Positions 4,122 through 29,424 of a DNA stretch of 64,000 nt are shown in pieces. A program made the translations under genes and the position numbers. The stretch covers positions 1-64,000 of the forward strand of contig JAGBLF010000012.1 of the NCBI GenBank assembly GCA_017635595.1. The letters run 5' to 3'. Below the pieces are notes generated by a model, which saw only the letters and a list, made by a program, of their open reading frames with translations, did not search any database and was not told where the DNA came from. The DNA is from Alphaproteobacteria bacterium (GTDB taxonomy: Bacteria > Pseudomonadota > Alphaproteobacteria > RF32 > CAG-239). How positions within the stretch are numbered: position 1 is the first letter of the stretch; each line of letters opens with the position of its first letter.

Positions 4122-4192
4122 ACTACAAACTATGTCTTAAGCACCTATGGTAAAAAAACAATAATTTTACAAAGGTATACATAATTTGTAGT
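4122..4192 (-). promoter_or_regulatory. Leader inverted repeat, locus 1
   Basis: The arms ACTACAAACTATGT (4122-4135) and ACATAATTTGTAGT (4179-4192) are 14 bases each with one DNA mismatch, which becomes a G-U pair in the leader RNA. They enclose 43 bases with their own pairing (ACCT/AGGT around GTAAAA/TTTTAC). The first arm begins about 6 bases after the predicted RNA start and the second is followed by a T-run. It could be an RNA switch, an operator pair or a DNA-inversion site. Confidence 0.6.
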
Positions 4193-4204
4193 GGAATTAG
4201 ACAT

Positions 4205-4233
4205 ATTATAACTGCAATTTGTCAAAAAATCAA
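4205..4233 (-). promoter_or_regulatory. Promoter of the 3575-4081 gene
   Basis: On the minus strand TTGATT (4233-4228), a 17-base spacer and TATAAT (4210-4205). Spacing and -35 sequence match the promoters at 25658-25686 and 29274-29302. Confidence 0.65.
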
Positions 4234-4275
4234 TCTATTTTTTGAGAACACGCCGTGCACCTTGACCGACAGAAA

Positions 4276-4301
4276 CAAAAAAAGGAACTCTTTCAAGTTC
4301 C
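4276..4301 (-). terminator. nrdG terminator
   Basis: GGAACT (4284-4289) and AGTTCC (4296-4301) form a short stem with a 6-base loop, followed on the minus strand by seven T. Confidence 0.7.
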
Positions 4302-4311
4302 CTTTCCGGTT

Positions 4312-5019
4312 TTATTTGCGCATATCGAAAATTGCAAATTTTGACTTCAAATAAGCGGCTAACTTTTCATCTTTGAAAAATTTTTCACACGCGGATTCTT
4401 GCGTTGCCGTATCACTCGGAATCGGACGATATTTTTGAATATGATACTCTTTAACACCTAAGTCGGAAAGCGTATCGGCCAGCTGATAAATATCTTCTAT
4501 ATCGAGAAAACGCGGATCGCACGTTGTGCGGCACTCGAAATTAACACCTGATTTTATAACAATATCCAAGCTCTGCTTGATTTTTTCAACATCGCCGAAT
4601 CCGCCGGTTATCTTTTTATATTTATCGGTTTCAAACGGCGCTTTAATATCAAAACCTATCCACGAAAGCTTTGAGATAACTTTTTCTAAAGCTTCAGGAT
4701 TGTAACCGCCGGTATGCATACCGACCTCGAACCCCATATTGTGCACAATTTCCATAGCCTCAGCCAAATTTGCTTGCATCAAAGGCTCGCCGCCGGAAAA
4801 CACCACGCCGTCAACCACGCCTTTGCGATGCTCCAGCAAATGCAACAAATTATCCCACGAAGCATTGCCTTCGACCTTAAAATCTTGCAACGATTGGTTA
4901 TAACAAAACGGGCAACGCCACGGACAACCTTGCAAAAAAGCCACAACGGCGATTTTGTTCGGCCAGTCGACAATACTGAACTTTTCAATATCACCGATAT
5001 TAATTAAATTTTCTGCCAT
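4312..5019 (-). CDS. nrdG: Anaerobic ribonucleotide reductase activating enzyme, radical SAM
   Basis: This enzyme uses a 4Fe-4S cluster and S-adenosylmethionine to place a glycyl radical on the class III ribonucleotide reductase. The 235-residue protein has the radical-SAM cluster motif with spacing CX3CX2C near residues 32-39 (QGCPWRCPFC), a GGEP motif near residue 76, and the N-terminal SIVDWPNKI typical of the NrdG2-type activase. AAGGA lies about 8 bases before the start. It is the last gene after nrdD and its small glycyl-radical partner, with a terminator-like hairpin between that partner and nrdG that may lower its expression. Confidence 0.92.
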   Translation of the reverse strand: MAENLINIGDIEKFSIVDWPNKIAVVAFLQGCPWRCPFCYNQSLQDFKVEGNASWDNLLHLLEHRKGVVDGVVFSGGEPLMQANLAEAMEIVHNMGFEVGMHTGGYNPEALEKVISKLSWIGFDIKAPFETDKYKKITGGFGDVEKIKQSLDIVIKSGVNFECRTTCDPRFLDIEDIYQLADTLSDLGVKEYHIQKYRPIPSDTATQESACEKFFKDEKLAAYLKSKFAIFDMRK

Positions 5020-5036
5020 TTATCCGTCCTTACCTA

Positions 5037-5072
5037 TTAAAAAAGGCGATACTGAAAAACTCAATATCGCCT
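5037..5072 (-). terminator. Intra-operon terminator before nrdG
   Basis: AGGCGATA (5044-5051) and TATCGCCT (5065-5072) form an 8-bp perfect stem followed, on the minus strand, by six T. It lies between the glycyl-radical gene and nrdG, so partial read-through would give less activase than reductase. Confidence 0.75.
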
Positions 5073-5090
5073 GAACTTTACAGTTGTTGC

Positions 5091-5312
5091 TTATTCGGCT
5101 GCAGCCAATTCGCAACCGCAGTTACCCTCTAAAGACATGTGCATAACAGCCTTATCTTCAACAAAGCATTTACGAGAGTAATACTCTGATTTTTTGCCTC
5201 TGTTAAATTCGCTAACCGGACGATGATAGCCCATAACACGGGTCCATACTTCGCAAGGTTGTCTTTCGGCATCGGTTAATTTTACATCTTCAAAATTGAT
5301 TGTGTTTGTCAT
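5091..5312 (-). CDS. Separate glycyl-radical domain of class III ribonucleotide reductase
   Basis: This 73-residue protein matches the C-terminal glycyl-radical end of NrdD. It contains TRVMGYHRPVSEFNRGKKSE near residues 24-43, where the G of RVMGY is the expected radical site. In most class III reductases this segment is fused to the catalytic chain. Here the catalytic gene stops 47 bases upstream in another reading frame, and this gene has its own AGAGGA site about 9 bases before its ATG. It therefore looks like a subunit that docks in trans, comparable in principle to the GrcA/YfiD spare part of pyruvate formate-lyase. A recent frameshift is less likely given the dedicated ribosome site. 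Confidence 0.85.
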   Translation of the reverse strand: MTNTINFEDVKLTDAERQPCEVWTRVMGYHRPVSEFNRGKKSEYYSRKCFVEDKAVMHMSLEGNCGCELAAAE

Positions 5313-5359
5313 TATATAGTGTCCTCTAAGTTTATTTGTTATTCCATATTGTTCTTTTT

Positions 5360-7459
5360 TTAAGCAACGTTACTTGCTTTTAAGTTTTTTAATTTTGCGG
5401 CCTTCTTTTCCTCATCACAAAGCGGGCAGAACTTATGTTCACCGGCCAAATAGCCGTGCTTCGGACAAATAGAGAATGTCGGTGTTATAGTAATATATGG
5501 CAGACGATAGTTGGTCAGAACCTTTTTAATCAGTTCGCCGCATACCTTTGCCGAAGAAATTCTTTGGCTCATATACAAGTGCAATACGGTACCGCCGGTA
5601 TATTTAGATTGCAAAGATGCCTGCAATTCCAAAGCCTCAAACGGATCATCGGTATAGCCGACCGGCAGTTGTGAAGAGTTTGTATAATACGGATCTTCTT
5701 TGGTGCCGGCTTGAATGATGCCAGGGTAACGTTTTTTATCTTCACGGGCAAAACGATAGGTCGCACTTTCGGCCGGTGTGGCTTCAAGGTTATACATGTG
5801 GCCGGTTTCTTCTTGAATTTTAATTAATTTGGCACGGATATAGTCCAAGAATTTTTCGGCAAAAGCTTTACCCCACGGATCAGCCACTTCATGCTCGCCG
5901 TCAGTATAGTTCAAAATCATTTCATTAATACCGTTAACGCCGATGGTCGAGAAGTGATTACGAAGTGTTCCCAAATAACGTTTTGTGTACGGATACAGAC
6001 CATTGTCAATCAGGCGTTGAATAACTTTACGTTTAATTTCAAGCGATGTACGGGCAATATTGAGCAATTCATCTACACGGGCAAATAATCCGGCTTCATT
6101 GCCTTTGTATACATAACCCAAACGTGCGCAGTTAAACGTTACAACGCCGATAGAGCCTGTTTGCTCGGCTGAACCGAATAAGCCGTTACCTTTGGCCAAT
6201 AATTCACGCAAATCGAGTTGCAAACGGCAGCACATTGAACGAATTTGTCCCGGTTTTAATGTCGAATTGATAAAGTTTTGGAAATAAGGCATACCGTATT
6301 TGGCTGTCATTTCAAACAAGAGTTGAGATTTTTCATCATCCCACGGAAAATCCGGTGTCATATTGTATGTCGGAATCGGGAAGGTAAACGGACGGTCCAT
6401 AACATCGCCTTCCATCATAACTTCGATATAAGCACGGTTAATCATATCCATTTCTTTTTGGCAATCACCGTAAGTAAACGGCATTTCTTCCTGACCTTCG
6501 ATAATCGGCATAAAGCTGTCATCGTGACCGGCAATATGACCGCCGATACAAGGATGTTGATCTCTTAAATCTTCAGGGCATACCCAGTCAAACGTAAAGT
6601 TGGTAAACGGTGTTTGCGAACCCCAACGAGACGGAACATTCAAGTTATAAACCAGTTCCTGCATGCATTGTTTAACTTCTTTGTATGATAAGTTATCTTT
6701 TTTAACGTATGGTGCCAAATAGGTATCAACAGAAGAGAAAGCTTGCGCACCGGCCCATTCGTTTTGCAGTGTGCCCATAAAGTTTACCATTTGACCGGTG
6801 GCAGCGGATAAGTGCTTCGGCGGGTTAGCTTCGGCCTTACCGCGAACGCCGTTAAAGCCTTCTTTTAATAAGTTTTTCAAGGACCAACCGGCACAATATG
6901 CAGCCAACATATCCAAATCGTGAATGTGGATATCGCCGTTGCGGTGAGCTTCACCGACTTCGGACGGATAAACGTGACTCAACCAGTAGTTAGCTGTAAC
7001 TTTACCGGATACATTCAAAATCAAACCGCCGTTAGAGTAACCTTGGTTGGCATTGGCATTAACGCGCCAATCGAGTTTTTCCAAATATTCGTTAATCGAG
7101 CTTTCAACATCAACCATAACTTTTTTATCGGCACGCATACGATTACGTTGGTCACGGTACAAAATATAGGCTTTTGCCGTATTAACATAGTTAGAAGAAA
7201 TTAAGGCCTGTTCAACCACATCTTGAATTTGTTCAATCGACGGAACGGTTTCGGCAAATTTATAATTAATAACTTTCATTGCCTGTGCGGTAATGAGCAA
7301 CGCATCGGCTTCACCGAATTCATTGGTGGAAGCGGCTGCTTTTAAGATGGCATTATAAATTTTGCTGCTGTCAAAGTCAGCCAATGTTCCGTCTCTTTTG
7401 GTCACGGATTGAACCTTTGATTTTATGCTGTCAAGATGTTTGGTTTGCTCTTCGGCCAT
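5360..7459 (-). CDS. nrdD: Anaerobic (class III) ribonucleoside-triphosphate reductase, catalytic chain lacking the glycyl-radical end
   Basis: NrdD reduces ribonucleotides to deoxyribonucleotides without oxygen. The 699-residue chain has an N-terminal ATP-cone (VTKRDGTLADFD, residues 19-30, to about 105), the catalytic barrel with the MCCRLQLD cysteines near residues 410-411, and a C-terminal zinc site (CPKHGY...FCPLC). It ends soon after that site, where related proteins continue into a glycyl-radical domain; that domain is encoded by the next gene. AGGAGGA sits 5 bases before the ATG. The promoter upstream is overlapped by two NrdR-type boxes, so repression when dATP is plentiful is expected. 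Confidence 0.95.
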   Translation of the reverse strand: MAEEQTKHLDSIKSKVQSVTKRDGTLADFDSSKIYNAILKAAASTNEFGEADALLITAQAMKVINYKFAETVPSIEQIQDVVEQALISSNYVNTAKAYILYRDQRNRMRADKKVMVDVESSINEYLEKLDWRVNANANQGYSNGGLILNVSGKVTANYWLSHVYPSEVGEAHRNGDIHIHDLDMLAAYCAGWSLKNLLKEGFNGVRGKAEANPPKHLSAATGQMVNFMGTLQNEWAGAQAFSSVDTYLAPYVKKDNLSYKEVKQCMQELVYNLNVPSRWGSQTPFTNFTFDWVCPEDLRDQHPCIGGHIAGHDDSFMPIIEGQEEMPFTYGDCQKEMDMINRAYIEVMMEGDVMDRPFTFPIPTYNMTPDFPWDDEKSQLLFEMTAKYGMPYFQNFINSTLKPGQIRSMCCRLQLDLRELLAKGNGLFGSAEQTGSIGVVTFNCARLGYVYKGNEAGLFARVDELLNIARTSLEIKRKVIQRLIDNGLYPYTKRYLGTLRNHFSTIGVNGINEMILNYTDGEHEVADPWGKAFAEKFLDYIRAKLIKIQEETGHMYNLEATPAESATYRFAREDKKRYPGIIQAGTKEDPYYTNSSQLPVGYTDDPFEALELQASLQSKYTGGTVLHLYMSQRISSAKVCGELIKKVLTNYRLPYITITPTFSICPKHGYLAGEHKFCPLCDEEKKAAKLKNLKASNVA

Positions 7460-7521
7460 TTTTGTCCTCCTAAAATTGATTATTTATTTTGTGTCAAGAT
7501 TACATAACAGTATTTAATAAA

Positions 7522-7580
7522 CTATTAAAAAACATACAATATATAGTCAAGCTAAAAAAATAAATAACAACATATTGTGT
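7522..7580 (-). promoter_or_regulatory. nrdD promoter with paired NrdR boxes
   Basis: On the minus strand TTGACT (7550-7545), a 17-base spacer and TAATAG (7527-7522) form the promoter. Two sites resemble the NrdR consensus acaCwAtATaTwGtgt: 7534-7549 (13 of 16 matches) and 7565-7580 (14 of 16). Their centres are 31 bases apart, about three helical turns, as in known NrdR regulons. The first box covers the -35 region, so binding should repress. The stretch 7581-7930 holds no gene; it contains an inverted repeat CTTGTCGC/GCGACAAG (7615-7622, 7654-7661) of unknown role. Confidence 0.75.
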
Positions 7581-7954
7581 TAAACACTGAATTTTTACTG
7601 TTAAAGTCTGATGACTTGTCGCTTAAAAATCATTCTGCAAAAAATAAAAAAATGCGACAAGAAAAATTTTTTTGCCTTAGTGTAAAAATAACCGCAAATT
7701 GAAGTTATGAATTTCGTAAACTCTTAAAATTACGCTAAAAAATTTTTTAAGGATAAATGTGTATCGGTGGATAAAGTTATTAACAAAGTTTAATAGTACA
7801 AACGGATATTTCTTACACCGTAAAACAATATGTTATGTGTAATATTTTGATTATTCTTTTCTATATTTTTTAAAATACCCCGCTTATATGATTTTGTTAT
7901 CATAAAAATAGGAAAAAAACGAAATATTAATCGCCTTTGCGATTCTTATTTATT

Positions 7955-7996
7955 AAAACAGAAAATCTGCCTTTTTGCGGGCAGATTTTCTGTTTT
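7955..7996 (-). terminator. Terminator of the TolC-like lipoprotein gene
   Basis: Two perfectly complementary 17-base arms (7955-7971 and 7980-7996) with an 8-base loop. Their A- and T-rich ends provide the T-tract on either strand. Confidence 0.85.
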
Positions 7997-8014
7997 ACAC
8001 ATAATGATTGTTAT

Positions 8015-9916
8015 TTATTGCGGATCACGGATCGGCGCAAATACCTGAACACTGTCCAAATCCTCATCTTTACATTGATTGCCGCTGCAACTCTTCATTA
8101 CCGTAGCTGCTCGGCCTCTGTTCAAGCCGCGAACATTGATTGACGGTACATACGAATCGATAATCGTCAAATTAAAATTCAAATACGCAATATTGTTTTT
8201 ATTATCGATTGCATAAATTTTAATCGGATAACGTCCGCTATCTCCCGGCATTGCCAAACCTGTAAAGGTCCGATTTGCCGGATTATATTTTAAGAACTTC
8301 GGCAAAGGCGAATCATCAACTAAACCGGCTTTTGTCGAAAATTCACCCGGTTTCCATCCCATTTTGCTGAAAATTGCTTCCGGAACTAAAATATTGATGT
8401 GCTCGCCCGTATGGTAAGTTACGTCCGGCAACAGAATTGACGAAGACAAATCAACCGGCGGACGATGTGTCGGAATATCCATCAAATACGGACGATTACC
8501 CGGTGCAAAATCACCGTTGCGCCACTTTTCAAGTGTACTGCGCAAAGCCAACGCGATTTGCGACGGCGATTCGTTTAACATATAGTACGGGACGGCATCC
8601 AAGCCTATTGTAGCATACAAAGCGCCCAATGCATCCTGCATATCGACATACGCTAAAGATGCCTTGGTTTCATCGCCGATGGCACGAGCCGCTTCAAGCT
8701 GGCTCTTTTCAGCATGGCTCCCGTTGGCAGCCGTAGTATCTTCGGCAATATTTTCGGAAGCACCGGCAATTTCAAGTGCAATCTGATAATCTTCTACCGA
8801 TGAGGTATAGCGTGCCCAGGCAATATAAACCTGATTCAAAATTAATGATGTCATGCGTTGACGGCGTAAATCATTCAAAATCTTTTCACTTAAACCCTGA
8901 ACGCGCTGACCTTCATAAACCGACATCGAAACCTCCTTGGCGGCACTGCACCACTTTTGGTTATAGACGGTCGGATTGCTCTTATAATTGCTGCCGTTAT
9001 CATCGCGGAAATCATTAATAATGAGTTCCAAATCATCGGCATTGGTCAACAGATTATGAACCTTTAATTCCGGACGATTGGTCAGAGCCAACCACTCCAA
9101 ACGAGAAAGGTTTGATTTGATTTCCGGCAACGTGAAATTACCGTATTCTTTGCCGACAAGCGTAAACTGTGTTTGCGGATGCATACCCATTAACGAAGCT
9201 AAACGTTCATGAGCCGTTTCCATTTCACGCTTCAAGTTAGAAAGCTTTTTAACGGCCTCCATATATTTACGTTTGGTGACGAGCTGTTCCGTTTCAGGAT
9301 TTTTGCCTTGTTCAGCCAATTCTTTGGCTTTAACATTCATTTCATCGACATCAAGCGTAATGTGTTCGATGGTATCGTCGATAACCGGTAACAAACGTTG
9401 AGCCGTCAAGGCTTTCCAGTACAATACACGCGCCTCTTGTAAGATATTCTGAATTACCTTACGGCTTTCTTCGGTAGCAACATTTTGTTTTAACATCGGA
9501 TCAGACTTCATATAATATAATGTCGTCAAATCCAAAATATTCCAAGCCACTTTCAAATCCGGGCTGGTTTCGCTGTAATTGGTATTAACATAGCCGGCGT
9601 TCGAAACAATTTCAGGCAGTGCCGAATAAGCGGCCTTCCCCGATTTCTGCAGGCTCTCCTGATACCGCATCATCCGTCCGGTATAGTTATACTTAACGGC
9701 CAAAGCCATTGTCATATACATATCAAGCGGCTTTTCAATTTTAGTCGGCGAATTTGCATACATATTTTGCATATCGGCATCATAACGGATGGCATTATCC
9801 CAATCCGAATAATATGCCGCATCCGGTTGTTGCTGAACATCGGCATACTGCTTATTGCCTTTTGTACAAGAAACAACACTCATTGCACCAACTATCAAAC
9901 AAAGCAATTTTTTCAT
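8015..9916 (-). CDS. TolC-family outer-membrane efflux lipoprotein with a cadherin-like C-terminal domain
   Basis: The 633-residue protein has a lipoprotein signal (VVSC, cysteine 17), long helical stretches of the TolC/outer-membrane-efflux type (about residues 70-460, with heptad-like regions near 215-250), and a C-terminal segment (about 510-595) with the LPKFLKYNPANRTFTG pattern of putative-Ig/dystroglycan cadherin-like domains. TolC proteins form outer-membrane exit channels for type I secretion or efflux. No membrane-fusion protein or transporter is adjacent. The gene is divergent from virB8, so a link to type IV secretion is possible but unproven. AAGGA precedes the start by about 8 bases. 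Confidence 0.7.
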   Translation of the reverse strand: MKKLLCLIVGAMSVVSCTKGNKQYADVQQQPDAAYYSDWDNAIRYDADMQNMYANSPTKIEKPLDMYMTMALAVKYNYTGRMMRYQESLQKSGKAAYSALPEIVSNAGYVNTNYSETSPDLKVAWNILDLTTLYYMKSDPMLKQNVATEESRKVIQNILQEARVLYWKALTAQRLLPVIDDTIEHITLDVDEMNVKAKELAEQGKNPETEQLVTKRKYMEAVKKLSNLKREMETAHERLASLMGMHPQTQFTLVGKEYGNFTLPEIKSNLSRLEWLALTNRPELKVHNLLTNADDLELIINDFRDDNGSNYKSNPTVYNQKWCSAAKEVSMSVYEGQRVQGLSEKILNDLRRQRMTSLILNQVYIAWARYTSSVEDYQIALEIAGASENIAEDTTAANGSHAEKSQLEAARAIGDETKASLAYVDMQDALGALYATIGLDAVPYYMLNESPSQIALALRSTLEKWRNGDFAPGNRPYLMDIPTHRPPVDLSSSILLPDVTYHTGEHINILVPEAIFSKMGWKPGEFSTKAGLVDDSPLPKFLKYNPANRTFTGLAMPGDSGRYPIKIYAIDNKNNIAYLNFNLTIIDSYVPSINVRGLNRGRAATVMKSCSGNQCKDEDLDSVQVFAPIRDPQ

Positions 9917-10036
9917 GTTTGTGTCCTTTTTTATCGTCTATTATCTAAAGGTATAATAATCATTAAAAATTAACATTTTATTACACTTTTAAGATTATTA
10001 TGTGTTATAAATCAAAATATAGGATAAGAATCGGCT

Positions 10037-10810: not shown

Positions 10811-10812
10811 TA

Positions 10813-12186: not shown

Positions 12187-12199
12187 AAATTTTCTCCAT

Positions 12200-12258: not shown

Positions 12259-12314
12259 TACATTTCAACTGTTATTTTTTTATTATCCTCATTAAACTCT
12301 TTAGCAAAAAAGCA

Positions 12315-12344
12315 ACAAAAAAACGTCGGTTTAATACCGACGTT
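12315..12344 (-). terminator. Terminator of the 12344-13555 gene
   Basis: AACGTCGGT (12322-12330) and ACCGACGTT (12336-12344) form a 9-bp stem followed on the minus strand by a T-run. The stem begins at the stop codon. Confidence 0.8.
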
Positions 12345-13555
12345 TAAGAAATGTAAAAGCAGGAATCATACAGCCTTTTCATTGTAAAGTACTGTCTCAA
12401 AAACGAAGCATCGTGCAGTAGCTGCTGATTTTGGCTGCAAGCTTTTTCCAAACGGAGCATTTCATACTTAAAAGCATTCAGCCTTTTGTTCAGCTCATCA
12501 GCCACATCAAGCGCTTTAAGATCTTCCACAAATTCGACTGTAAAAAGACGTCCTTTCTTATACCGAATAAAATCCGGCAGAGAATTGTTTAAGTCGTCTT
12601 GCGGAAATTTTTCGATATACACATGCGCATAAAGCGGATTAGTGCCGTGCTGTACATCAATTAGGCAGCGTTCGGCCGTATCCAAATAGACAGGGCTGTG
12701 TGTCTGCGCCAAAATTTCCTCAATTTCATCACTTGCCTCATCGTCGTCATTGTTGAACCGCTCGGGTTTGCAACGCAGATTTTCAAGAAACTCTTGTTCT
12801 CTGGCCAAGCGATCGGCAATACATGCCGAGAGAAGGCGACCGGGGACATTCGGTGCAATACCGTCAACATCGTCCTGAAAATACGGTGTGCAGTAAACCA
12901 GTGCCAAAACCTCGTCTTCTTCGGATGAAAGTTCTGTTTCCGACGTATATGCTTTTTTAAGCGCCTCAATCACTTTTTTCACGCCTAATTTCGGCACATA
13001 ACAATCAACAAGTTCCCGAAAATTAAGATTGGCACTGATGCCGTAATCACAGCGTACATCCATCGTTTCCAACAACAACGAAAAATTGCGTCTCAGCAAA
13101 TCGGTCTTGTGTTCGACGTTTGTAAAGATAATGCCGTATTTATTATCCAAATCTGCTGTCAGGCTTGCAATATCAAGCCCTTTGATTTTGGCTAAACAAT
13201 AGGCATCGGTAACCGCTCCCATTCCAAAAGGTTTCATCAAATTCTGTCCGACGAGCGATGATACTTTTTCAACAAAATCATACTGCAAGGAAATCGGCCG
13301 ACAAAAGCGCAAATCTTCAATGGCATTTATGAGTTCTTCTTCCTGACTGTCAACTTCTTTAGCGACAAGCCAAAACAATTTAATGTCATCTTCGTTTCGG
13401 TCAAAAATAAAAAATGCATCGGCATCAATATCTTTAACCCATTTCTGTATTTGCTGATTTTTGAGATCGCAACGTTCCCGATAATAATTTCCAAAAATGC
13501 GTCGTCCCAGCCACGTCTTATGGTTCAGGTACTCTCTTAATTCTTTGATATCCAT
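12344..13555 (-). CDS. Orphan cytoplasmic protein, 403 residues
   Basis: I do not recognise this protein. It is soluble, acidic, without signal peptide or membrane segment. It has an acidic linker near residue 270 (NNDDDEASDEIEE) and a helical C-terminus (about 345-395) that could be a coiled coil. There is no Shine-Dalgarno site; the leader ends in ATATATT-ATG, like the other orphans here. A near-consensus promoter and a terminator flank it, so it forms its own transcription unit. A secreted effector is conceivable given the nearby secretion genes, but nothing in the sequence shows it. Confidence 0.65.
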   Translation of the reverse strand: MDIKELREYLNHKTWLGRRIFGNYYRERCDLKNQQIQKWVKDIDADAFFIFDRNEDDIKLFWLVAKEVDSQEEELINAIEDLRFCRPISLQYDFVEKVSSLVGQNLMKPFGMGAVTDAYCLAKIKGLDIASLTADLDNKYGIIFTNVEHKTDLLRRNFSLLLETMDVRCDYGISANLNFRELVDCYVPKLGVKKVIEALKKAYTSETELSSEEDEVLALVYCTPYFQDDVDGIAPNVPGRLLSACIADRLAREQEFLENLRCKPERFNNDDDEASDEIEEILAQTHSPVYLDTAERCLIDVQHGTNPLYAHVYIEKFPQDDLNNSLPDFIRYKKGRLFTVEFVEDLKALDVADELNKRLNAFKYEMLRLEKACSQNQQLLHDASFLRQYFTMKRLYDSCFYIS

Positions 13556-18232: not shown

Positions 18233-18270
18233 AAAAAATAATGAGCCTCAGACGGTTAAATCTGCGGCTC
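18233..18270 (-). terminator. Terminator overlapping the end of the 18256-18591 gene
   Basis: GAGCCTCAGA (18243-18252) and TCTGCGGCTC (18261-18270) pair with one bulge and are followed on the minus strand by a T-rich tract. The first arm in the RNA is within the last codons, as for the 3575 gene. Confidence 0.65.
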
Positions 18271-18591
18271 CGTAAAGTGGTCGAACATTATTATTCTTCT
18301 GGGTATATTGCGAAAGGCAATCAGCCAATTAACCGCAACCATAGCCATAGTATTGAATAAAAGAGTTTTAATGCTCATCCATAGTACAGGGGGAAGATAA
18401 GTGTAAAAATCTTTTGAGCATAATACCGCGCCGAGCAATATATCGCTCATAATTATAAGTATCTTCATCCATAAGGTCGTGAGGTCTATATATACATCAA
18501 AACGCTTCTTGCGTTTACCGAGCACATATGCATACCCCCAATTTATAGCGCAAACAAACGCGCTCAATGCTAAAATAATAGTCGTTTCCAT
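18256..18591 (-). CDS. Small membrane protein, orphan
   Basis: An unrecognised 111-residue protein with three hydrophobic segments (about 3-24, 40-60 and 65-92) and a basic loop GKRKKR. There is no Shine-Dalgarno site; the leader ends in TTAATAATT-ATG, like the other orphans in the window. A promoter and a terminator that overlaps the stop codon support a real single-gene unit. Function unknown. Confidence 0.6.
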   Translation of the reverse strand: METTIILALSAFVCAINWGYAYVLGKRKKRFDVYIDLTTLWMKILIIMSDILLGAVLCSKDFYTYLPPVLWMSIKTLLFNTMAMVAVNWLIAFRNIPRRIIMFDHFTEPQI

Positions 18592-20494: not shown

Positions 20495-21142
20495 TCAATA
20501 AATTCCTCGCGGTAACCAAATCGGACGAGTCGCATAACGTGCGTTCTCATCAAGCGGTTTAGTCGTGCCGCTCTTAACATCAAAGACGACAAGATCTTTA
20601 TGACGGGGATCAAAAGCCCAATAGTTTTCATCCTTAAACCAATCTTGCACGCAGTGACCGTTATCCTCAAGCTCATGCAACATCGCCGAAAACTGCTCGA
20701 TGTACGGCATCATACGCAGAAAATGGCTCACCGACGGCATATAACATCTGAGTTTTTCGGTACCGACGCAGTCATAGAAATATTGCCAACGAATCCGCTC
20801 ATATTCTGATGTTCCGGCCTCGTTATCAAGCTCGGATACAGACTTTATTTGTCCGTTGTTCCACAATTTCAGCTCGTTGCAAGTCAATGTATCTGTGTGC
20901 CATCGACACCAGAATATACCGTCAACCTGTATGCCCCAAATATCTCCCAATCTGTTTTTCTTCAGTTTAAAATCGGCCTTTAGAGAATCGCCTTTCCTGT
21001 TAAGATAGGCAAACTGCACGGGGTGATCCGATCTCGATACTTCACTCGGATTTTGTGAAGCCGGCCATTGGACGCAAGCCGATGCGTGTTCTTTGCCAAT
21101 ACCTTGTTTTGACAAAGTGCGTAATAAACCTGTTCTTTTCAT
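20495..21142 (-). CDS. LPFLD-type orphan family, divergent member
   Basis: This 215-residue soluble protein is the most divergent of four paralogues in the window (also 23543-24250, 24383-25078 and 35809-36594). It keeps the order of shared blocks: PVQFAYLNRKG (residue 41), a spacer, DIWGIQVDGIFW (66), a middle helix with MPSVSHFLRMMPYI, then W...ENYWAFD and a C-terminal VVFDVKSG. The canonical LPFLD block is lost. There is no Shine-Dalgarno site; the leader ends in ACAATT-ATG. I do not recognise the family; no membrane or signal segment is seen. Confidence 0.6.
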   Translation of the reverse strand: MKRTGLLRTLSKQGIGKEHASACVQWPASQNPSEVSRSDHPVQFAYLNRKGDSLKADFKLKKNRLGDIWGIQVDGIFWCRWHTDTLTCNELKLWNNGQIKSVSELDNEAGTSEYERIRWQYFYDCVGTEKLRCYMPSVSHFLRMMPYIEQFSAMLHELEDNGHCVQDWFKDENYWAFDPRHKDLVVFDVKSGTTKPLDENARYATRPIWLPRGIY

Positions 21143-21213: not shown

Positions 21214-21244
21214 ACCGCGATAACAGCATTCTCCAAGAAAGCTA

Positions 21245-21601
21245 TCAGAACACAAAGGTTTCCATTAACGCAGGTGAAAAGTGGGATACAAAATACTCCA
21301 CTTCCAGTTCATTGCGATTCAGGCGAACCGTTTCGTGAACATCCCCCTGCGTATCAAATTGCGCGTACCCCCTTTCACATTTTTTCGTGGCCGGATACGT
21401 GTTACGTTTGACCGGAAGAAGCAGCTCACTCTGAACAAACCTTCTTTTCATCACGTCAATAGCCTTTGGAGTTCCGCTCAGCAGAACGCCCAAACGGCAG
21501 GACTTTGAGCCTTCTTTGTCTATTTCAACAATAACGGCCCAAGCAAGCTTGTACTTGCGCGGAATTCCGAAGAATCGACGCAAAAAACCTAAACTAATCA
21601 T
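21245..21601 (-). CDS. Small orphan protein, 118 residues
   Basis: A basic, soluble, unrecognised protein; a central beta-rich stretch (LAWAVIVEIDKEG, CRLGVLLSG) is the only visible feature. It has a consensus promoter, no Shine-Dalgarno site (leader ends in TTATT-ATG) and its own terminator. It lies upstream of the 20495-21142 family gene in the same direction, but the terminator separates them. Confidence 0.55.
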   Translation of the reverse strand: MISLGFLRRFFGIPRKYKLAWAVIVEIDKEGSKSCRLGVLLSGTPKAIDVMKRRFVQSELLLPVKRNTYPATKKCERGYAQFDTQGDVHETVRLNRNELEVEYFVSHFSPALMETFVF

Positions 21602-21636
21602 AATAAATAGATAAATTAAAAATTTGTTTTGTGCCG

Positions 21637-21664
21637 ATTATATCATCGTTTTCCCTAATGTCAA
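21637..21664 (-). promoter_or_regulatory. Promoter of the 21245-21601 gene
   Basis: On the minus strand TTGACA (21664-21659), N16, TATAAT (21642-21637): both hexamers are perfect consensus. Confidence 0.75.
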
Positions 21665-21693
21665 TATTTTTGTCAAATCTATTTTAGACATTA

Positions 21694-21721
21694 TTGACAA
21701 AAGAAAATACTGTGTTATAAT
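21694..21721 (+). promoter_or_regulatory. Promoter of the 21747-23471 gene
   Basis: TTGACA (21694-21699), N16, TATAAT (21716-21721): perfect consensus hexamers, divergent from the promoter at 21637-21664. Confidence 0.8.
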
Positions 21722-21746
21722 TGTAATAATTGTAAGGAGAAAGAAT

Positions 21747-23471: not shown

Positions 23472-23492
23472 TTTTATCTGTATAACAAAAAG

Positions 23493-23529
23493 AAAAAGGT
23501 CTCAATCCTATCGGATTTGAGACCTTTTT
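23493..23529. terminator. Bidirectional terminator
   Basis: AAAAAGGTCTCAATCC and GGATTTGAGACCTTTTT form a long stem with one mismatch between convergent genes. Confidence 0.9.
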
Positions 23530-23542
23530 CTTTTTTTCAAAA

Positions 23543-24250
23543 CTACTCAAACAGATGTTCATAAACGCCGGCGGTCAGTTTTTCCCAGTTGGGAAGCCCT
23601 TCTTCCGTAACAGGAACACCGCGCATACTGCAGTTGCATCTGATGATAAAACGCATGTGATACGGTGTATCCGATGACGAATCATATTCAGATATCACAC
23701 CGGTACTCATATCCACAACGTGCGGGTAGTCGCCTTTTTTGCATACATCTTCGGCAGCATACGGGTCATGTGACCAATTGTCGGCACTCAGCCCGTGGCT
23801 ACGGAAAATACGCATGGTTTCGTTGAGCAACTCGCGCTTGGTGTAGGCGTTCTGCATATCGTTCAGATACGGCACCGCGAAGCTTGGACGACCAAACGAT
23901 CCATCTCCGAAAATTTTTTCCGTCATCTCTTTCAAGGCGTTATTAACCCCTATCCAGCCGGTTTCGTGCGGTAGGTTGAAGTTATCGTCATTTTTGCTGA
24001 ATGGTACACCATCCACCTCGACCCCGAAAACTTTATCCAGACGCGTTGTGTCCAAAAACGGCAATGACAGCATTCGGTTCTTGGCGCCGAAGTAGACGAC
24101 GGGAAGCGGTGTAATCACCCAGTTTTCCTGTCTTAAAAATAACCGTGGGACATCAATTTTACCGGTTTGTGCAAGCTTGGCCGCGTACTCGAGAGCATCT
24201 GACTGCGTTACGCCCATCAGTGCTAATTGCTTGAATTTAGCTTCGTTCAT
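23543..24250 (-). CDS. LPFLD-type orphan family member
   Basis: A 235-residue soluble protein, one of four paralogues. Blocks in order: an N-terminal helix with GVTQSDALEYAAKL (residues 13-26), TPLPVVYFGAKNRML (47), LPFLDTTRLDKVFGVEVDG (63-81), VPYLNDMQNAYTKRELLNET (126-145), HGLSADNW (152) and a C-terminal VVDMSTGVI. The nearest relative here is 35809-36594. There is no Shine-Dalgarno site (leader ends in TATCATT-ATG). Its promoter spacer carries the palindrome AATTTAG-N6-CTAAATT. Function unknown; the fixed block order suggests one folded domain. Confidence 0.75.
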   Translation of the reverse strand: MNEAKFKQLALMGVTQSDALEYAAKLAQTGKIDVPRLFLRQENWVITPLPVVYFGAKNRMLSLPFLDTTRLDKVFGVEVDGVPFSKNDDNFNLPHETGWIGVNNALKEMTEKIFGDGSFGRPSFAVPYLNDMQNAYTKRELLNETMRIFRSHGLSADNWSHDPYAAEDVCKKGDYPHVVDMSTGVISEYDSSSDTPYHMRFIIRCNCSMRGVPVTEEGLPNWEKLTAGVYEHLFE

Positions 24251-24289
24251 AATGATATTGATTTAAGTTAATAATAAAATATTTCAGAT

Positions 24290-24318
24290 AATTTAGCATA
24301 GCCTAAATTTTTTGTCAA
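24290..24318 (-). promoter_or_regulatory. Promoter with palindromic spacer, 23543-24250 gene
   Basis: On the minus strand TTGACA (24318-24313), N17, TAAATT (24295-24290). AATTTAG (24290-24296) and CTAAATT (24303-24309) form an inverted repeat within it, so an operator is possible. Confidence 0.6.
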
Positions 24319-24337
24319 CATTTAATCATATAAAAAC

Positions 24338-24371
24338 TAAAAAGGGGATATGCTGCGGCATACCCCCTTTT
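24338..24371 (-). terminator. Terminator of the 24383-25078 gene
   Basis: GGGGATATGC (24344-24353) and GCATACCCCC (24359-24368) pair with one mismatch and are followed on the minus strand by a T-run. Confidence 0.85.
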
Positions 24372-24382
24372 TATCGGTAATT

Positions 24383-25078
24383 TTACAGATATGACATTGT
24401 CTGATCGGGTTCGTTTTCACCATAGAACCTGAAGTCATCTGCCAGTGAACATTCGCAATCTATCGGATAAACCGAGCGCATCACCGTCATCAGCAGACAA
24501 CTCTGCTCATCACTTTCGGGAGCCTCCACACGACGGCGTCTTGTTCGCGCATCATAAGTTCTGACACGGGAACGGTCGTTACTGTTAGCCCAGAAAATGT
24601 CAGCGGCAAACCAGTCAGCCACTTCTACACCATTACTACGCAAAATATCGGCTGTCTGTTCAAAACCGTTTCGCTGTTTGCGAAGTGCCTGCAGTTCAAA
24701 GACTTGCGGCATATCAAAACGTTGTTCGGTACATCCGTAGCAGCGATACAGCTCTGAAGCCTCTTCGCCGAAAAGCTGTTTCTCGGCACAGGCAAGTGAA
24801 TCAGTTATTTCTGCCTGGCGAACTTTTCCTAAGGCTGTAATACCGTAATACGTTCCGTCTATCTCTATCCCCCACACCTTATCCTTAAAATTCAAATCAA
24901 GGAACGGCAGGCAGATCATCCTGTTTTCTTGACCGAGATAAACAATTCGCAGCGGGGTCAGAATACGTTGCTGCCTCGCAAATTCAAACCAGTTTCGATA
25001 GCGGTGAGCATAGTTAATCAGCTCGTAGGGATTAACACCGGCTTCGAACATAGCCTCAAAATTTTTTATTTCTTTCAT
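24383..25078 (-). CDS. LPFLD-type orphan family member
   Basis: A 231-residue paralogue of the 23543 and 35809 genes. Shared blocks: GVNPYELINYAHRY near residue 13, TPLRIVYLGQENRMICLPFL (41-60), DKVWGIEIDG near 66, a middle FDMPQVFELQALRKQRN, ADILRSNGVEVADWF, and IFWANSNDRS. The longer frame from 25153 runs into the promoter; the ATG at 25078 gives an N-terminus that aligns with the relatives. There is no Shine-Dalgarno site. It is next to another member (132 bases away), but each has its own promoter and terminator. Confidence 0.75.
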   Translation of the reverse strand: MKEIKNFEAMFEAGVNPYELINYAHRYRNWFEFARQQRILTPLRIVYLGQENRMICLPFLDLNFKDKVWGIEIDGTYYGITALGKVRQAEITDSLACAEKQLFGEEASELYRCYGCTEQRFDMPQVFELQALRKQRNGFEQTADILRSNGVEVADWFAADIFWANSNDRSRVRTYDARTRRRRVEAPESDEQSCLLMTVMRSVYPIDCECSLADDFRFYGENEPDQTMSYL

Positions 25079-25118
25079 AAGTATAATTTGTATGTAACTA
25101 ATGTTATTGGTGTACAAC

Positions 25119-25146
25119 ATTATAGCACTGCTATTTTTTTTGTCAA
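25119..25146 (-). promoter_or_regulatory. Promoter with palindromic spacer, 24383-25078 gene
   Basis: On the minus strand TTGACA (25146-25141), N16, TATAAT (25124-25119). The 13-base palindrome ATAGCACTGCTAT (25122-25134) overlaps the -10 and spacer. Confidence 0.7.
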
Positions 25147-25155
25147 CACACAAAT

Positions 25156-25201
25156 AAGAAACCCCCGCCTTTCCTTTGTGAGGAAAAACAGGGGTTTCTT
25201 A
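25156..25201 (-). terminator. Terminator of the 25208-25531 gene
   Basis: GAAACCCC-type and GGGGTTTC-type arms with an inner TTTCCT/AGGAAA pairing form a long hairpin just after the stop codon. Confidence 0.7.
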
Positions 25202-25207
25202 TAGTTG

Positions 25208-25531
25208 TCATGCCTCTTTGGGCTTTTTACAAACAAACGCATCAATCAGGATCGTCACCCAAAAATAGTCCACCGCACACATACAGACTATTTTCTCCAT
25301 TGACCCGTCCTCTGTAAAAAAGAGCAAAATACTACTGACGAATCCCAATAATGCAGCACCAATCTCGTGTGCAACAAGAGGTTTTGCTTCCCCTTCTTCT
25401 ACAGTCGCATACATACCCATAGCCAGAAGAGCGCTCAAAATGCATGCAACAACGGTAATCCACACATTGCAGCAAACAGCTACAACAACTGCCAACAGCA
25501 CGAAAGGGATAAGATAATAAATTTTTTTCAT
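25208..25531 (-). CDS. Small membrane protein, orphan (leader-repeat class)
   Basis: A 107-residue protein with three to four hydrophobic segments (about 5-20, 23-42, 55-72 and 78-97) separated by an acidic loop (TVEEGEAKPL). No family is recognised. Its upstream region has the same design as the 3575-4081 and 29425-29913 genes: TTGATT-N17-TATAAT, an inverted repeat CTACAAATTATG/CATAATTTGTAG starting about 7 bases into the RNA, a T-run, and an SD-less start. The similar class of product at all three loci (short, hydrophobic) suggests co-regulation. Confidence 0.7.
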   Translation of the reverse strand: MKKIYYLIPFVLLAVVVAVCCNVWITVVACILSALLAMGMYATVEEGEAKPLVAHEIGAALLGFVSSILLFFTEDGSMEKIVCMCAVDYFWVTILIDAFVCKKPKEA

Positions 25532-25565
25532 AGTCGTATAGTTTTTATGTTAATAATCAGAAAAA

Positions 25566-25644
25566 CTACAAATTATGCTTTCATTATCTGCTTACCGCCG
25601 ACAACTATTAAGTAATTTACTAATACTTAAAACATAATTTGTAG
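25566..25644 (-). promoter_or_regulatory. Leader inverted repeat, locus 2
   Basis: CTACAAATTATG (25566-25577) and CATAATTTGTAG (25633-25644) are perfect 12-base arms around 55 bases. Inside, TTAAGTA/TACTTAA and TTGTC/GATAA could form two further helices, giving a three-way junction in RNA. A T-run follows the second arm. Confidence 0.6.
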
Positions 25645-25657
25645 ATGAATTACCATT

Positions 25658-25686
25658 ATTATACAGTATTATTCATATTTAATCAA
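25658..25686 (-). promoter_or_regulatory. Promoter of the 25208-25531 gene
   Basis: On the minus strand TTGATT (25686-25681), N17, TATAAT (25663-25658). Confidence 0.7.
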
Positions 25687-25701
25687 TAGAAATCCGACAC
25701 A

Positions 25702-25731
25702 CAAAAAGGCCCGCCTTTTAAGCGAGCCTTT
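25702..25731 (-). terminator. pnp terminator
   Basis: AAAGGCCCGC (25705-25714) and GCGAGCCTTT (25722-25731) pair with a wobble and are followed on the minus strand by T. It ends the truB-rpsO-pnp operon. Confidence 0.8.
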
Positions 25732-25751
25732 TACAATGTTTTTAGAAAAGG

Positions 25752-27872
25752 TTATTTTTCCAAATCTTCGCCGGTTTCCTGATTAACACGTTTTGCCGAC
25801 AACTTGATTTTGCCGCGGTTATCTGTGCCTAAGCATTTAACCCACATTTCATCGCCTTCTTTATAAAAGTCGGAAACAGAGGCAATACGTTCATTCTTAA
25901 CTTCGGAAATATGAACCAAACCTTCCGTTTGTCCCAAGAAGCGAACAAATGCACCGAAATCCATAATCTTGGTAATGGTTCCGTGATAAATTTTACCGGC
26001 TTCCGGTACGGCAACAATACCGTTAATGATTTCAATCGCTTTCTGACAATTTTCATTATTGTTGGAAGCAATCGTAACTACACCGTCATCGGTAATATCA
26101 ATTTTGGTATTGGTTTTTTCGATAATTTCACGAATAACTTTACCGCCGGTACCGATAACTTCACGGATTTTATCAGTCGGAATCTGCATGGTATGAATAC
26201 GCGGTGCCTTCGGAGAAATTTCCGGACGCGGTGCGGCAATAGCCTTGGCCATTTCGCCCAAAATGTGGATACGACCTTCGTGCGCTTGAGCCAAAGCATT
26301 TTTCATAATTTCTTTGGTAATGGAGGTAATTTTAATATCCATTTGCAAAGCGGTTACACCGTCTTTTGTACCGGCAACTTTGAAATCCATATCGCCCAAG
26401 TGGTCTTCATCGCCCAAAATATCGGTCAAAATAGCCACACGGCCGTCATCTTCTTTAATAAGACCCATAGCAATACCGGCAACCGGCTTTTTCATCGGCA
26501 CACCGGCATCCATCAAAGACAGACAGGTACCGCAAACGGTAGCCATTGAGGACGAACCGTTGGATTCCATAATATCCGAAACAACACGCAAAGTATAAGG
26601 GAAAGTTTCCTTATCTTTCGGCAACATCGGATGAATCGCGCGCCAAGCCAATTTACCGTGGCCGATTTCACGACGACCCGGCGTACCCAAACGACCGCAT
26701 TCACCAACTGAGAACGGCGGGAAGTTGTAATACAGCATAAAGTCTTGCTTGTATTCATTCAATAAACCGTCAACGATTTGCGCATCATCCGGTGTACCCA
26801 AAGTGGTTACAACCAAGGCCTGTGTTTCACCACGTGTAAACAAAGCAGAACCGTGTGCTTCCGGCAAAATACCTACTTCGCATTGAATAGGACGGACCGT
26901 TTTGGTATCACGACCGTTAATACGATGACCGGTTGTTAAAACTTTTTCACGCATGGTGTGGTGCATAACGTTTTCAATAGCATCGCAAACATAAGCGTTT
27001 TCAACTTCGTTTTCCGGATCGATAGAAGCTTTAACTTCTTCCGCCAACTGGCCTAAAACCGTTCCGCGTTCCAACTTATCGGTAATACCGAAAGCGGCAT
27101 TGTAACGATCACCGTAATTAGCGATAATACGCTTGCTCAAAGCCTCATATTCTTCAGGGAATGTCGGAACATCCCACTTTTCTTTACCGGCTTCAACGGC
27201 CAATTCTTTAATCATTTTAATAACCGGTTGGAAGCTTTCAAAACCGAACATAACCGCACCGAGCATGGTGTCTTCGGAAAGTTCTTGAGCTTCGGATTCA
27301 ACCATCAAAACGCCTTCTTCGGTACCGGCAACGGTCAATTCAAGCTCAGAAGCAGCCTGTTCTTCAATTGACGGGTTCAAAAGGTAAGCACCGTCTTTGT
27401 AGCCGACTTTAGCGGCGCCGATCGGGCCCATAAACGGAATACCCGAAACAGCCAATGCGGCTGAAGCGGCAACCATTGAAACAACGTCGGAATCATTCTT
27501 TTGGTCATGTGATAATACCGTGCAGATGATTTGAACTTCATTTTTGAAAGCATCCGGGAACAACGGACGAATCGGTCTGTCGATTAAGCGGGAGATTAAA
27601 ACTTCGCGCTCGGAAGGTTTGCCTTCTCTTTTAACGAAACCGCCCGGAATTTTACCGGTAGCATAATATTTTTCCTGATAGTTGACGGTTAAAGGAAAGA
27701 AATCCTGATCTGCCTTTACCTCTTTTGCGGCAACCACCGTTGCAACAACTACTGTTTCCCCATACGTTGCCACAACCGCACCGGTTGCCTGTCTGGCAAT
27801 CTTACCTGTTTCTAAAACTAATTTACGGCCGCCCCATTCCATCTCTTTGCGGCTAACTTTAAAATCTATCAT
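25752..27872 (-). CDS. pnp: Polynucleotide phosphorylase
   Basis: PNPase degrades RNA 3' to 5' using phosphate and works in the degradosome. The 706-residue protein has two RNase PH domains ([20 protein letters not shown] near residue 75; [20 protein letters not shown] near 390), a KH domain ([15 protein letters not shown] near 560) and an S1 domain ([18 protein letters not shown] near 627). AAAGGAAAG precedes the ATG at 27872; the frame from 27959 is too long. A hairpin in the rpsO-pnp gap may be the target of the usual RNase III/PNPase autoregulation. Confidence 0.97.
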
Positions 27873-27934
27873 ATATTCTTTCCTTTCTATATCTCTTTTC
27901 AATTCCTCACCCAGCCAAGCACCGGGATTTTTTA

Positions 27935-27963
27935 GGGGCTGCAAGACCCATTCCCGCAACCCC
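27935..27963 (-). promoter_or_regulatory. Hairpin in the rpsO-pnp gap
   Basis: GCAACCCC (27956-27963) and GGGGCTGC (27935-27942) pair fully in the minus-strand RNA with a G-U pair and a 13-base loop, followed by UAAAAAAU. It could be an rpsO terminator or the processing stem that controls pnp, as known in enterobacteria. Confidence 0.45.
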
Positions 27964-27980
27964 TTTTAATCGGTCAAAAA

Positions 27981-28250
27981 TTACTTACGTAATTCTAACT
28001 TCTTAATGATAGCTTGATATCTTTCTTCACTCATTTTCTTTAAGTGATCGAGCAAGTGACGACGACGGCTAACCATCTTCATCAAGCCCAAGCGAGAATG
28101 TAAGTCTTTTTTATGAACATTAAAGTGTTCAATCAAAGCATTAATTCTGTAAGTCCAAATAGCGATCTGAACTTCCGGACAACCGGTATCATTTTCAGAA
28201 GTACCGTATTTTGCTACGATTTCTTTTTTTACTTCATTACTAATCGACAT
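27981..28250 (-). CDS. rpsO: 30S ribosomal protein S15
   Basis: The 89-residue protein is a full-length S15: NDTGCPEVQIA, NALIEHFNVHKKDLHSRLGL, then RRRHLLDHLK and the C-terminal YQAIIKKLELRK. AAAGGA precedes the ATG. Its start overlaps the end of truB by 11 bases, so it is translationally linked within truB-rpsO-pnp. Confidence 0.96.
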   Translation of the reverse strand: MSISNEVKKEIVAKYGTSENDTGCPEVQIAIWTYRINALIEHFNVHKKDLHSRLGLMKMVSRRRHLLDHLKKMSEERYQAIIKKLELRK

Positions 28251-29172
28251 CTTTTATTTCCTTTTGTAAAATATTGTTAAACACGCGAATCGGCGAAAGT
28301 TTATGTTCGTCAACCCGCAACAGTGCAATCAAACAATTATGAAACATCGCCGCTGCCAAACTTCCGACCGACAAACCGGCGTAATTTTTAGGCGATAAGC
28401 CTTGTCCCACACTTAGTTTTCTTGCGTCTTCAGCCGAAACAGCGATCTCCGCGATGTCGCGCAGAGACGTTTCTAACGGCAGAAGTAACTTGCGTCGTTC
28501 TTCTACATACTCTATTTTTTCTAAAGAATCCAGTAAAATTTTTGATTTTAAATCAAAATTTCCGCATTTTGTACGTCTTAATTCGATTAAATGCCCTAAA
28601 GTACCGAGTTTTTCGGCCATATCTTTACCGAGTGTACGCACATAAGTTCCTTTAGAGCATTGAACCTTAAATTTTGCCGAATCGGTATATTCTGCCAACA
28701 ATTCCAGCCCGTAAATTTCGATTTGCCGCGCCGGCATTTCGACACTTTGCCCTTTGCGTGCCAATTTATAGGCGGGCTTGCCGCTGATTTTGATGGCTGA
28801 ATACATCGGCGGAACTTGGGTAATTTTGCCGATAAACTGCGGCAACACGGCAACAATTTCTTCATGTGTCGGAATTTTTGTCGCGCGGGCAATAATTTCG
28901 CCTTCGGTATCATCGGTTGATGTTTGCTCGCCCCATTTGACGATAAACTCGTATTCTTTATCGCCGTCGGTGACAAACGGCACCAGTTTGGTCGCCTCGC
29001 CGAAAGCTATCGGCAGCACGCCGGTGGCAAACGGATCGAGCGTGCCGGTATGTCCGTTTTTTTTGGCTTGCAGCAAATAACGGGTTTTGCCGACAACCTG
29101 TGTCGACCCCATATCTTTCGGCTTATCGATAATCAGCCAACCGTCTACGTCATCACCATGTTTATGTTTCAT
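28240..29172 (-). CDS. truB: tRNA pseudouridine-55 synthase
   Basis: TruB makes pseudouridine 55 in the T-loop of tRNAs. The 310-residue protein has the N-terminal GWLIIDKPKDMGSTQVV, the catalytic aspartate in GHTGTLDPFATGVLP (near residue 42), and YEFIVKWG. AAGG lies 4 bases before the ATG at 29172; the frame from 29235 lacks a site. It overlaps rpsO by 11 bases and is first in truB-rpsO-pnp; rbfA is not adjacent. Confidence 0.95.
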   Translation of the reverse strand: MKHKHGDDVDGWLIIDKPKDMGSTQVVGKTRYLLQAKKNGHTGTLDPFATGVLPIAFGEATKLVPFVTDGDKEYEFIVKWGEQTSTDDTEGEIIARATKIPTHEEIVAVLPQFIGKITQVPPMYSAIKISGKPAYKLARKGQSVEMPARQIEIYGLELLAEYTDSAKFKVQCSKGTYVRTLGKDMAEKLGTLGHLIELRRTKCGNFDLKSKILLDSLEKIEYVEERRKLLLPLETSLRDIAEIAVSAEDARKLSVGQGLSPKNYAGLSVGSLAAAMFHNCLIALLRVDEHKLSPIRVFNNILQKEIKDVD

Positions 29173-29246
29173 TTTACCTTTTTCCTTTGTTTTTCTTCTA
29201 AATTTTATCAAGAACTTTGTCAAACAAAAAAACAAAATACCTCAGG

Positions 29247-29264
29247 CGGAAAAGGCCTTTTCCG
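29247..29264. repeat. 18-bp perfect palindrome
   Basis: CGGAAAAGGCCTTTTCCG lies between the divergent truB and 29425 genes, followed by A-runs on the plus strand. It is not oriented as a terminator for either gene; an operator is possible. Confidence 0.5.
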
Positions 29265-29273
29265 AAAAAAAAC

Positions 29274-29302
29274 TTGATTTTGTCCGATTTAAAAGATATA
29301 CT
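29274..29302 (+). promoter_or_regulatory. Promoter of the 29425-30330 pair
   Basis: TTGATT (29274-29279), N17, TATACT (29297-29302). Confidence 0.65.
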
Positions 29303-29315
29303 ATACATAACTTAC

Positions 29316-29390
29316 AATACGAATTATGAATGACATTTATAAATTATCTTATAAATTCACACCTTTCGAGGTTGTTTCATAATTCGTATT
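29316..29390 (+). promoter_or_regulatory. Leader inverted repeat, locus 3
   Basis: AATACGAATTATGAA (29316-29330) and TTCATAATTCGTATT (29376-29390) are perfect 15-base arms around 45 bases. The inside holds TTTATAA/TTATAAA and ACCT-UUCG-AGGT, so a three-way junction is possible. The first arm begins about 7 bases after the predicted RNA start; a T-run follows. Confidence 0.65.
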
Positions 29391-29424
29391 TTTTATTGAT
29401 GTTAAACTAAAAAAAAAGAAAAAT

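Follow-up and report, generated by a model that had tools for sequence, protein, structure and literature searches.

Three short membrane-protein genes in the first 64,000 nucleotides (nt) of contig JAGBLF010000012.1 (assembly GCA_017635595.1; hereafter the window, meaning the whole stretch of DNA analysed), part of a 1.5 Mb alphaproteobacterial genome, are each preceded by a member of one family of 5′ leaders that share a covarying RNA stem, P1, and that probably, though by no means certainly, control translation by strand exchange. The 3′ arm of P1 with the U-run behind it is complementary both to the 5′ arm and, in most members examined, to the A-rich start of the following gene, which lacks a Shine-Dalgarno (SD) sequence. 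Comparisons covered 26 genomes of the genus and 152 of the family (126 of them outside the genus); the family consists of uncultured Alphaproteobacteria, some from ruminant stomachs. We tabulated 37 leaders, choosing their gene starts and P1 limits by hand.

The initial annotation of the window had described a promoter, an inverted repeat, a T-run and an SD-less ATG in the same order at three loci, and all of these were found as stated, including promoters of the form TTGATT-N17-TATAMT and products that are short and multi-pass (5, 4 and 4 hydrophobic segments at loci 1, 2 and 3 by a simple hydropathy scan). At locus 1, on the reverse strand, the promoter (TTGATT-N17-TATAAT, 4205-4233) is followed by the 14-nt 5′ arm of P1 (4179-4192; a putative mimic of a start region, with the inner end ATTATG plus T), an inside of 43 nt (4136-4178), the 3′ arm and U-run (4111-4135; weak anti-start pairing), an A-rich SD-less start region (4079-4103) and a gene for a predicted multi-pass membrane protein of 168 amino acids (aa) without a Pfam family (3575-4081). 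Locus 2, likewise on the reverse strand, consists of the promoter (TTGATT-N17-TATAAT, 25658-25686), 12-nt arms around 55 nt (16 around 47 with an inner extension; 5′ arm 25633-25644, inside 25578-25632, 3′ arm and U-run 25561-25577, again with weak anti-start pairing), the A-rich SD-less start region (25529-25553) and a gene for a predicted multi-pass membrane protein of 107 aa, also without a Pfam family (25208-25531). Locus 3, on the forward strand, has a promoter (TTGATT-N17-TATACT, 29274-29302), 15-nt arms around 45 nt (5′ arm 29316-29330; 3′ arm with U-run 29376-29394, the predicted anti-start strand), an A-rich SD-less start region (29403-29427) and a gene for a predicted multi-pass membrane protein of 162 aa with no Pfam family above cut-off (29425-29913). 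The sole arm mismatch, at locus 1, is a G-U pair in RNA, the ATG lies 40, 34 and 34 nt past the stem at loci 1, 2 and 3, and the three leaders fold with z-scores of -5.0, -4.8 and -5.1, respectively. Scanning the window for this design (repeat of at least 11 bp, 30-70 nt inside, TTTT and promoter) returned exactly the three loci, and 100 second-order Markov windows contained no repeat with a promoter; without the promoter requirement, 5 repeats with a T-run were found in the window versus a mean of 0.76 (maximum 3) in the Markov windows. The promoter pattern alone is commoner, with 12 matches across the 1.5 Mb genome.

P1 is an RNA stem. In a structure-blind MAFFT alignment of 22 copies, the rows of which came from hits of P1-containing models and hence lean towards paired copies, 91.6% of P1 cells were paired versus 77.3% after shuffling, and 41 cells were doubly changed versus 13.5 (standard deviation 3.1), neither value being reached in 500 shuffles. 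Pairs with double changes numbered 7 versus 5.6 (reached by 18 of 500 shuffles), and slid P1 partners paired in 35-49% of cells. The outer half of P1 differs between loci with its pairing mostly kept (TACRA/UYGUA, AAGG/CCUU, ACAGAAUU/AAUUCUGU and AAGUC/GACUU), so that the single arm sequence expected of a pair of DNA operators does not recur at all loci; pairing is absent from the three outermost columns in 6 or 7 of the 22 copies. The inner pairs AUUAUG/CAUAAU are nearly fixed, a hexamer partly imposed by the selection of copies, and the A seven bases before the AUG of the 5′ arm is fixed in 37 of 37 leaders. Single-strand folding gave z-scores of -3.8 or lower in 12 of the 15 leaders tried, the exceptions being G025 (-1.9), G020B (-0.8) and the degenerate G021 (+1.0). 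A -10-like box (at least 5 of 6 positions) precedes 31 of the 37 leaders versus 20% of random places, 20-39 nt ahead of the AUG end of the 5′ arm and with the best box at 24-26 nt in 24 of the 37; because of this position the RNA is expected to begin just before the 5′ arm. Covariation in relatives, the absence of which had been named beforehand as telling against a shared leader RNA, is present, and together with the folding z-scores and the promoter position it strongly supports such an RNA.

The first reading had overlooked a tendency for antisense complementarity between the 3′ arm and the start region of its own gene. Thirty leaders have a hand-picked ATG 30-164 nt downstream (within 56 nt in 25), and 29 of these starts lack an SD-like four-letter word between -16 and -4; they are A-rich from -14 to -8, have T at -1 without exception (30 of 30), and at -3 carry A in 25 cases and G in 5. 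We computed duplexes between non-overlapping windows of the right (3′) arm plus U-run and the start at these 30 loci, and compared them with duplexes obtained after swapping starts among loci. The right arm paired with its own start at -13.43 kcal/mol versus -10.32 kcal/mol with others (z -6.1, p 2e-5), a difference kept in every leave-one-out and found again in a non-redundant subset of 17 loci (p 2.4e-4), in 22 loci with a model hit at an expectation value (E) < 1e-3 (p 2e-5), and with swaps confined to hand-assigned P1 types (p 5e-4) or to genomes (p 0.004). Controls in which the inside or the left arm replaced the right arm gave p-values of 0.44 and 0.85 (windows overlapping by a few bases). 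Of 251 sites where the arms disagree, the start agreed with the complement of the right arm at 96 and with the left arm at 64, versus swapped means of 82 and 78 (p 0.011). In 12 of 22 loci the start region outpaired all windows from the 400 nt of gene that follow it, where 0.65 loci would be expected if windows were alike. Mean predicted strengths were similar for P1 (-15.2) and for right arm:start (-13.4), and blocking the left arm lowered predicted start accessibility in 26 of 30 loci, with 18.2 predicted right arm:start pairs for own starts versus 13.2 for swapped ones. Strong examples of own-start pairing are G019b, G022, G019, G016, G002c and G023a-c.

Several results weigh against strand exchange. 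Window loci 1 and 2 have only a weak second pairing, with 22 and 6 of 34 gene windows, respectively, pairing equally well or better, so locus 3 is the one window locus with clear evidence for it. The own start outperformed the average of other starts in 23 of the 30 loci, with little or no preference at G025, G020B, G016b, G007b, G024 and G012, and the native fold hardly forms P1 in 5 of 30 (probability at most 0.03; G002c, G005b, G022, G007b and G024). Starts are more A-rich than genes, which makes the 12-of-22 result partly one of composition; since a blocked left arm also leaves swapped starts covered (free fraction 0.33 versus 0.25 for own starts), part of the effect is general A/U-richness. 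The 7 nt before CAUAAU match the left arm (p 6e-4) and do not match codons 2-4 significantly better than chance (p 0.14), which leaves the idea that bases before CAUAAU generally match those codons unsupported. Lastly, 7 of the 37 tabulated leaders (G005c, G023d, G021, G005d, G020C, G009 and G014), excluded from the start tests, lack a usable nearby SD-less start or are degenerate.

The insides had been described as unrelated in sequence, which holds among the three window loci, but for each of them a similar inside occurs elsewhere in relatives. They fall into several types, and a single conserved ligand-binding core was not found. Type A (locus 3; 8 copies) is a predicted three-way junction with hairpins P2 (29331-29359) and P3 (29361-29372), each helix having one doubly changed pair; its covariation score was reached by 6 of 500 shuffles and its count of doubly changed pairs by 120 of 500, which makes P2 and P3 by themselves only modestly supported. 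Type B (locus 2), a predicted three-way junction with a GUUGUC/GAUAAU hairpin, also occurs in G025 and G020, and type C (locus 1) also in G002, where the hairpin ACC/GGT has the counterpart GCC/GGC. A partly conserved stretch, UGANAUUUA, follows the 5′ arm and could be a contact site for a factor. Searches of Rfam 15 gave no leader match, however weak, in 19 leader loci at E ≤ 5, and only transfer RNA in the window at gathering score.

In the strand-exchange model, P1 formation would hold the 3′ arm on the start-mimicking 5′ arm and leave the real start free (ON), and P1 opening would let the 3′ arm cover that start (OFF), a direction that we derived from geometry. The variable inside (three-way junction or hairpins) would bias the choice between the helices, and a ligand, a protein or the 30S ribosomal subunit itself on the decoy AUG are candidate triggers. 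We propose that imitation of a start region accounts for the AUUAUG at the end of the 5′ arm, and complementarity to the A-rich stretch before the start for the U-run, which resembles part of a terminator. A bolder and more doubtful version, which we hold only tentatively, is a portable, lineage-wide regulon of RNA start decoys without a shared protein site, in which 30S or a start-binding factor decides: each leader would be a copy of an SD-less start plus its antisense, refitted to the orphan membrane gene behind it, and the state of translation initiation would then decide the output of fast-turning-over membrane proteins.

Strand-exchange translational riboswitches such as the Vibrio vulnificus add adenine riboswitch, as outlined in PMC10907184, offer the closest parallel: like the add-type element described there, the leaders lie 5′ of the gene, use a P1 strand as the switching sequence and are predicted to cover or free the start region through mutually exclusive helices. 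A covarying P1 stem in the 5′ untranslated region is present (with the transcript start placed by the promoter), and a switching strand complementary to the start is found at the family level, weakly at loci 1 and 2. Unlike a riboswitch class, the leaders have no known ligand and no known single conserved aptamer core. They further differ from the add type in that they would hide an SD-less A-rich start and not a ribosome-binding site, that their 5′ arm imitates a start region, and that one design precedes 25 sequence groups of products. The starts themselves resemble the Kozak-like, A-rich SD-less starts outlined for Flavobacterium (Bacteroidota) in PMC6847099 in their A-rich stretch from -14 to -8 and in the A that 25 of 30 have at -3; unlike in Bacteroidota, the host is an alphaproteobacterium in which the other window genes mostly have SD-like sequences (by eye). 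If the model holds, an RNA family that matches nothing in Rfam would stand ahead of about 25 unrelated gene groups in one bacterial family. Searches of the open-licence literature gave no title or abstract opening that describes the element.

Termination at P1 and its U-run, with P1 disruption letting RNA polymerase reach the gene, or release of a small RNA, is the best-surviving alternative, though still an unlikely one. TTTT stands at or just past the end of P1 in 31 of the 37 leaders, but P1 is A+U-rich and encloses 35-92 nt, unlike a textbook terminator, and the U-run would be equally expected from an antisense of an A-rich start. A scan for intrinsic terminators (short-loop G+C-rich stem plus U-run) gave no site at loci 2 and 3, weak evidence as it covered loops of 3-8 only. 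Four near-alike leader-like elements (L149, L152, L173 and L174; left untabulated) with CCTAGGGA/TCCCTAGG ends and a promoter-like box are without a nearby gene and, by eye, are followed by a separate hairpin resembling a terminator; they speak for this alternative and are possibly a stand-alone small RNA or a repeated element.

Ribosomes could instead attenuate by translating a real frame opened by the AUG of the 5′ arm, thereby opening P1 and changing access to the start, which we rate as improbable. Translation attenuators of the erm/cat type have an upstream AUG and alternative helices ahead of the regulated start, as do the leaders, and in the 5′ arm, as in the SD-less starts of the genes, A stands at -3 and U at -2 and -1, a likeness to be read with the partly selection-imposed hexamer in mind. 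Unlike those attenuators, the leaders have no conserved leader peptide: frame lengths run from 1 to at least 60 codons, with an immediate stop in 4 of 30, and we rejected upstream-peptide conservation on these lengths. Ribosomes on the upstream frame are nevertheless a possible trigger of the strand-exchange model. Slightly less probable again is a passive 5′ structure that protects the mRNA end or insulates the start, the match between arm and start then reflecting a shared A/U-rich composition. The closeness of P1 to the expected 5′ end, the weak alternative pairing at loci 1 and 2 and the partial covering of swapped starts would fit this, but the match drops significantly once starts are exchanged, whether across loci or inside one genome or P1 type. 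The DNA element that the initial annotation had offered as a further option, paired operators or an inversion site for one protein, is by now largely refuted and extremely improbable despite the arm sequence common to the three window copies, because the arms vary among loci yet stay mostly paired (G-U included) and the inside keeps one orientation in 10 of 10 comparisons with relatives, and the promoter lies outside the repeat.

Further genomic copies had been predicted, and they exist in relatives but not in the genome itself, where the three leaders, all inside one 25 kb stretch (window 4111-29394), are the only copies found (model R3, E ≤ 2). The exact arm-pair pattern occurs in 4 of the 26 genus genomes (backward control 0; direct orientation, a negative control only, 0 of 56). 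Covariance models were built from 6 copies (R1), from type A (R2) and from the 22 copies (R3). R1 matched 12 of 26 genus genomes at E ≤ 1, and over the family 8 of 152 genomes at E ≤ 0.1, every one in the genus; R2, searched in 23 of the 26 genus genomes, exposed copies with different arm sequences. R3 matched 20 of 26 genus genomes at E ≤ 2, lenient enough for chance matches to be expected, and gave 26 matches in 14 of 26 at E ≤ 1e-3, of which 22 are its training copies and one is a simple hairpin. Over the family at E ≤ 0.5 it matched 23 of 152 genomes, including 6 of the 126 outside the genus, two of which look spurious (G063 resembles a chance match and G148 a simple hairpin); in a sample of 239 more genomes of the class, none was matched at E ≤ 0.01 (stricter filters). 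In named genomes, the exact arm pattern with a T-run was found in 13 stretches (6 Alphaproteobacteria/proteobacterium, 7 Bacteroidota) and in viral contigs in 3, the 10 non-proteobacterial ones being chance by eye, with no matching outer stem or promoter layout.

Weak hits were kept for G012 (E 1.9), G017 (0.066) and G024 (0.048). Left untabulated were the simple short hairpins L147 and L167 and the chance-like (by eye) L153, L170 and L175, and excluded by eye as chance or simple hairpins were R1 hits L014, L015, L016, L025 and L031 and R2 hits L112, L121, L122, L128, L133 and L134. Inspection left out R2 loci L117, L119, L120 and L129, and weak R3 hits without loci except for five stretches.

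By sequence comparison, this one kind of leader appears to be shared by about 25 unrelated genes, almost all of which encode proteins predicted to be secreted or to lie in the membrane. The 30 products (median 121.5 aa, one cut by a contig end) fall into 25 groups (BLASTP, E ≤ 1e-3), with at least one hydrophobic segment in 29 and at least two in 20 by a simple hydropathy count. The products of loci 1, 2 and 3 had 1, 0 and 4 relatives besides themselves at E ≤ 1e-3 when 5.8 billion proteins were searched with a word-limited method, and the scan of named genomes gave none for the locus 3 protein. In G002, loci 1 and 3 are matched by counterparts at corresponding positions; the locus 1 protein is 35% identical to its counterpart there, compared with 93-99.7% for four flanking proteins, which may reflect very fast evolution or replacement of an allele. 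A leader common to many unrelated orphan membrane genes suggests a common purpose, though sequence does not group them, and is a direct handle for finding more.

Leaders are not fixed at their genomic places, as one stands beside truB in only 4 of 24 genomes with a truB hit (the window genome, G002, G016 and G023, with different proteins behind it; 20 of 24 are without, 420 nt read by eye) and adjoins the radical-SAM gene of locus 1 in 2 of 23 genomes with enough sequence. In a fifth case, G005, the leader lies about 1.5 kb further on from truB. Between leader and gene (114-164 nt apart), L011, L019 and L020 have possible extra hairpins by eye, and L011 (G005) and L019 (G023) are nearly identical there. 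L135 and L035 (G005 and G023) share a similar stretch beginning AATTCCGCGGATATTG after the leader, with a small open reading frame only at about +292.

The ribosomal S15 leader (RF00114) is a nearby leader at the rpsO/truB junction, but it is a separate element on the opposite strand; it matches weakly at about 28194-28317 (reverse strand; 32 bits versus a gathering score of 39.5), and likewise in three relatives. Nine more window genes have SD-less, mostly ..ATTATG-like starts and no Pfam match at E ≤ 0.01 (12344-13555, 18256-18591, 20495-21142, 21245-21601, 23543-24250, 24383-25087, 35809-36594, 37920-38198 and 47883-48452). Right before the probable start of the one at 24383 stands a single arm-like TACAAATTATA (25082-25092, reverse strand) without a partner arm. 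Apparently the genome contains a separate class of orphan genes whose starts are Bacteroidota-like, and the leader precedes only part of this class.

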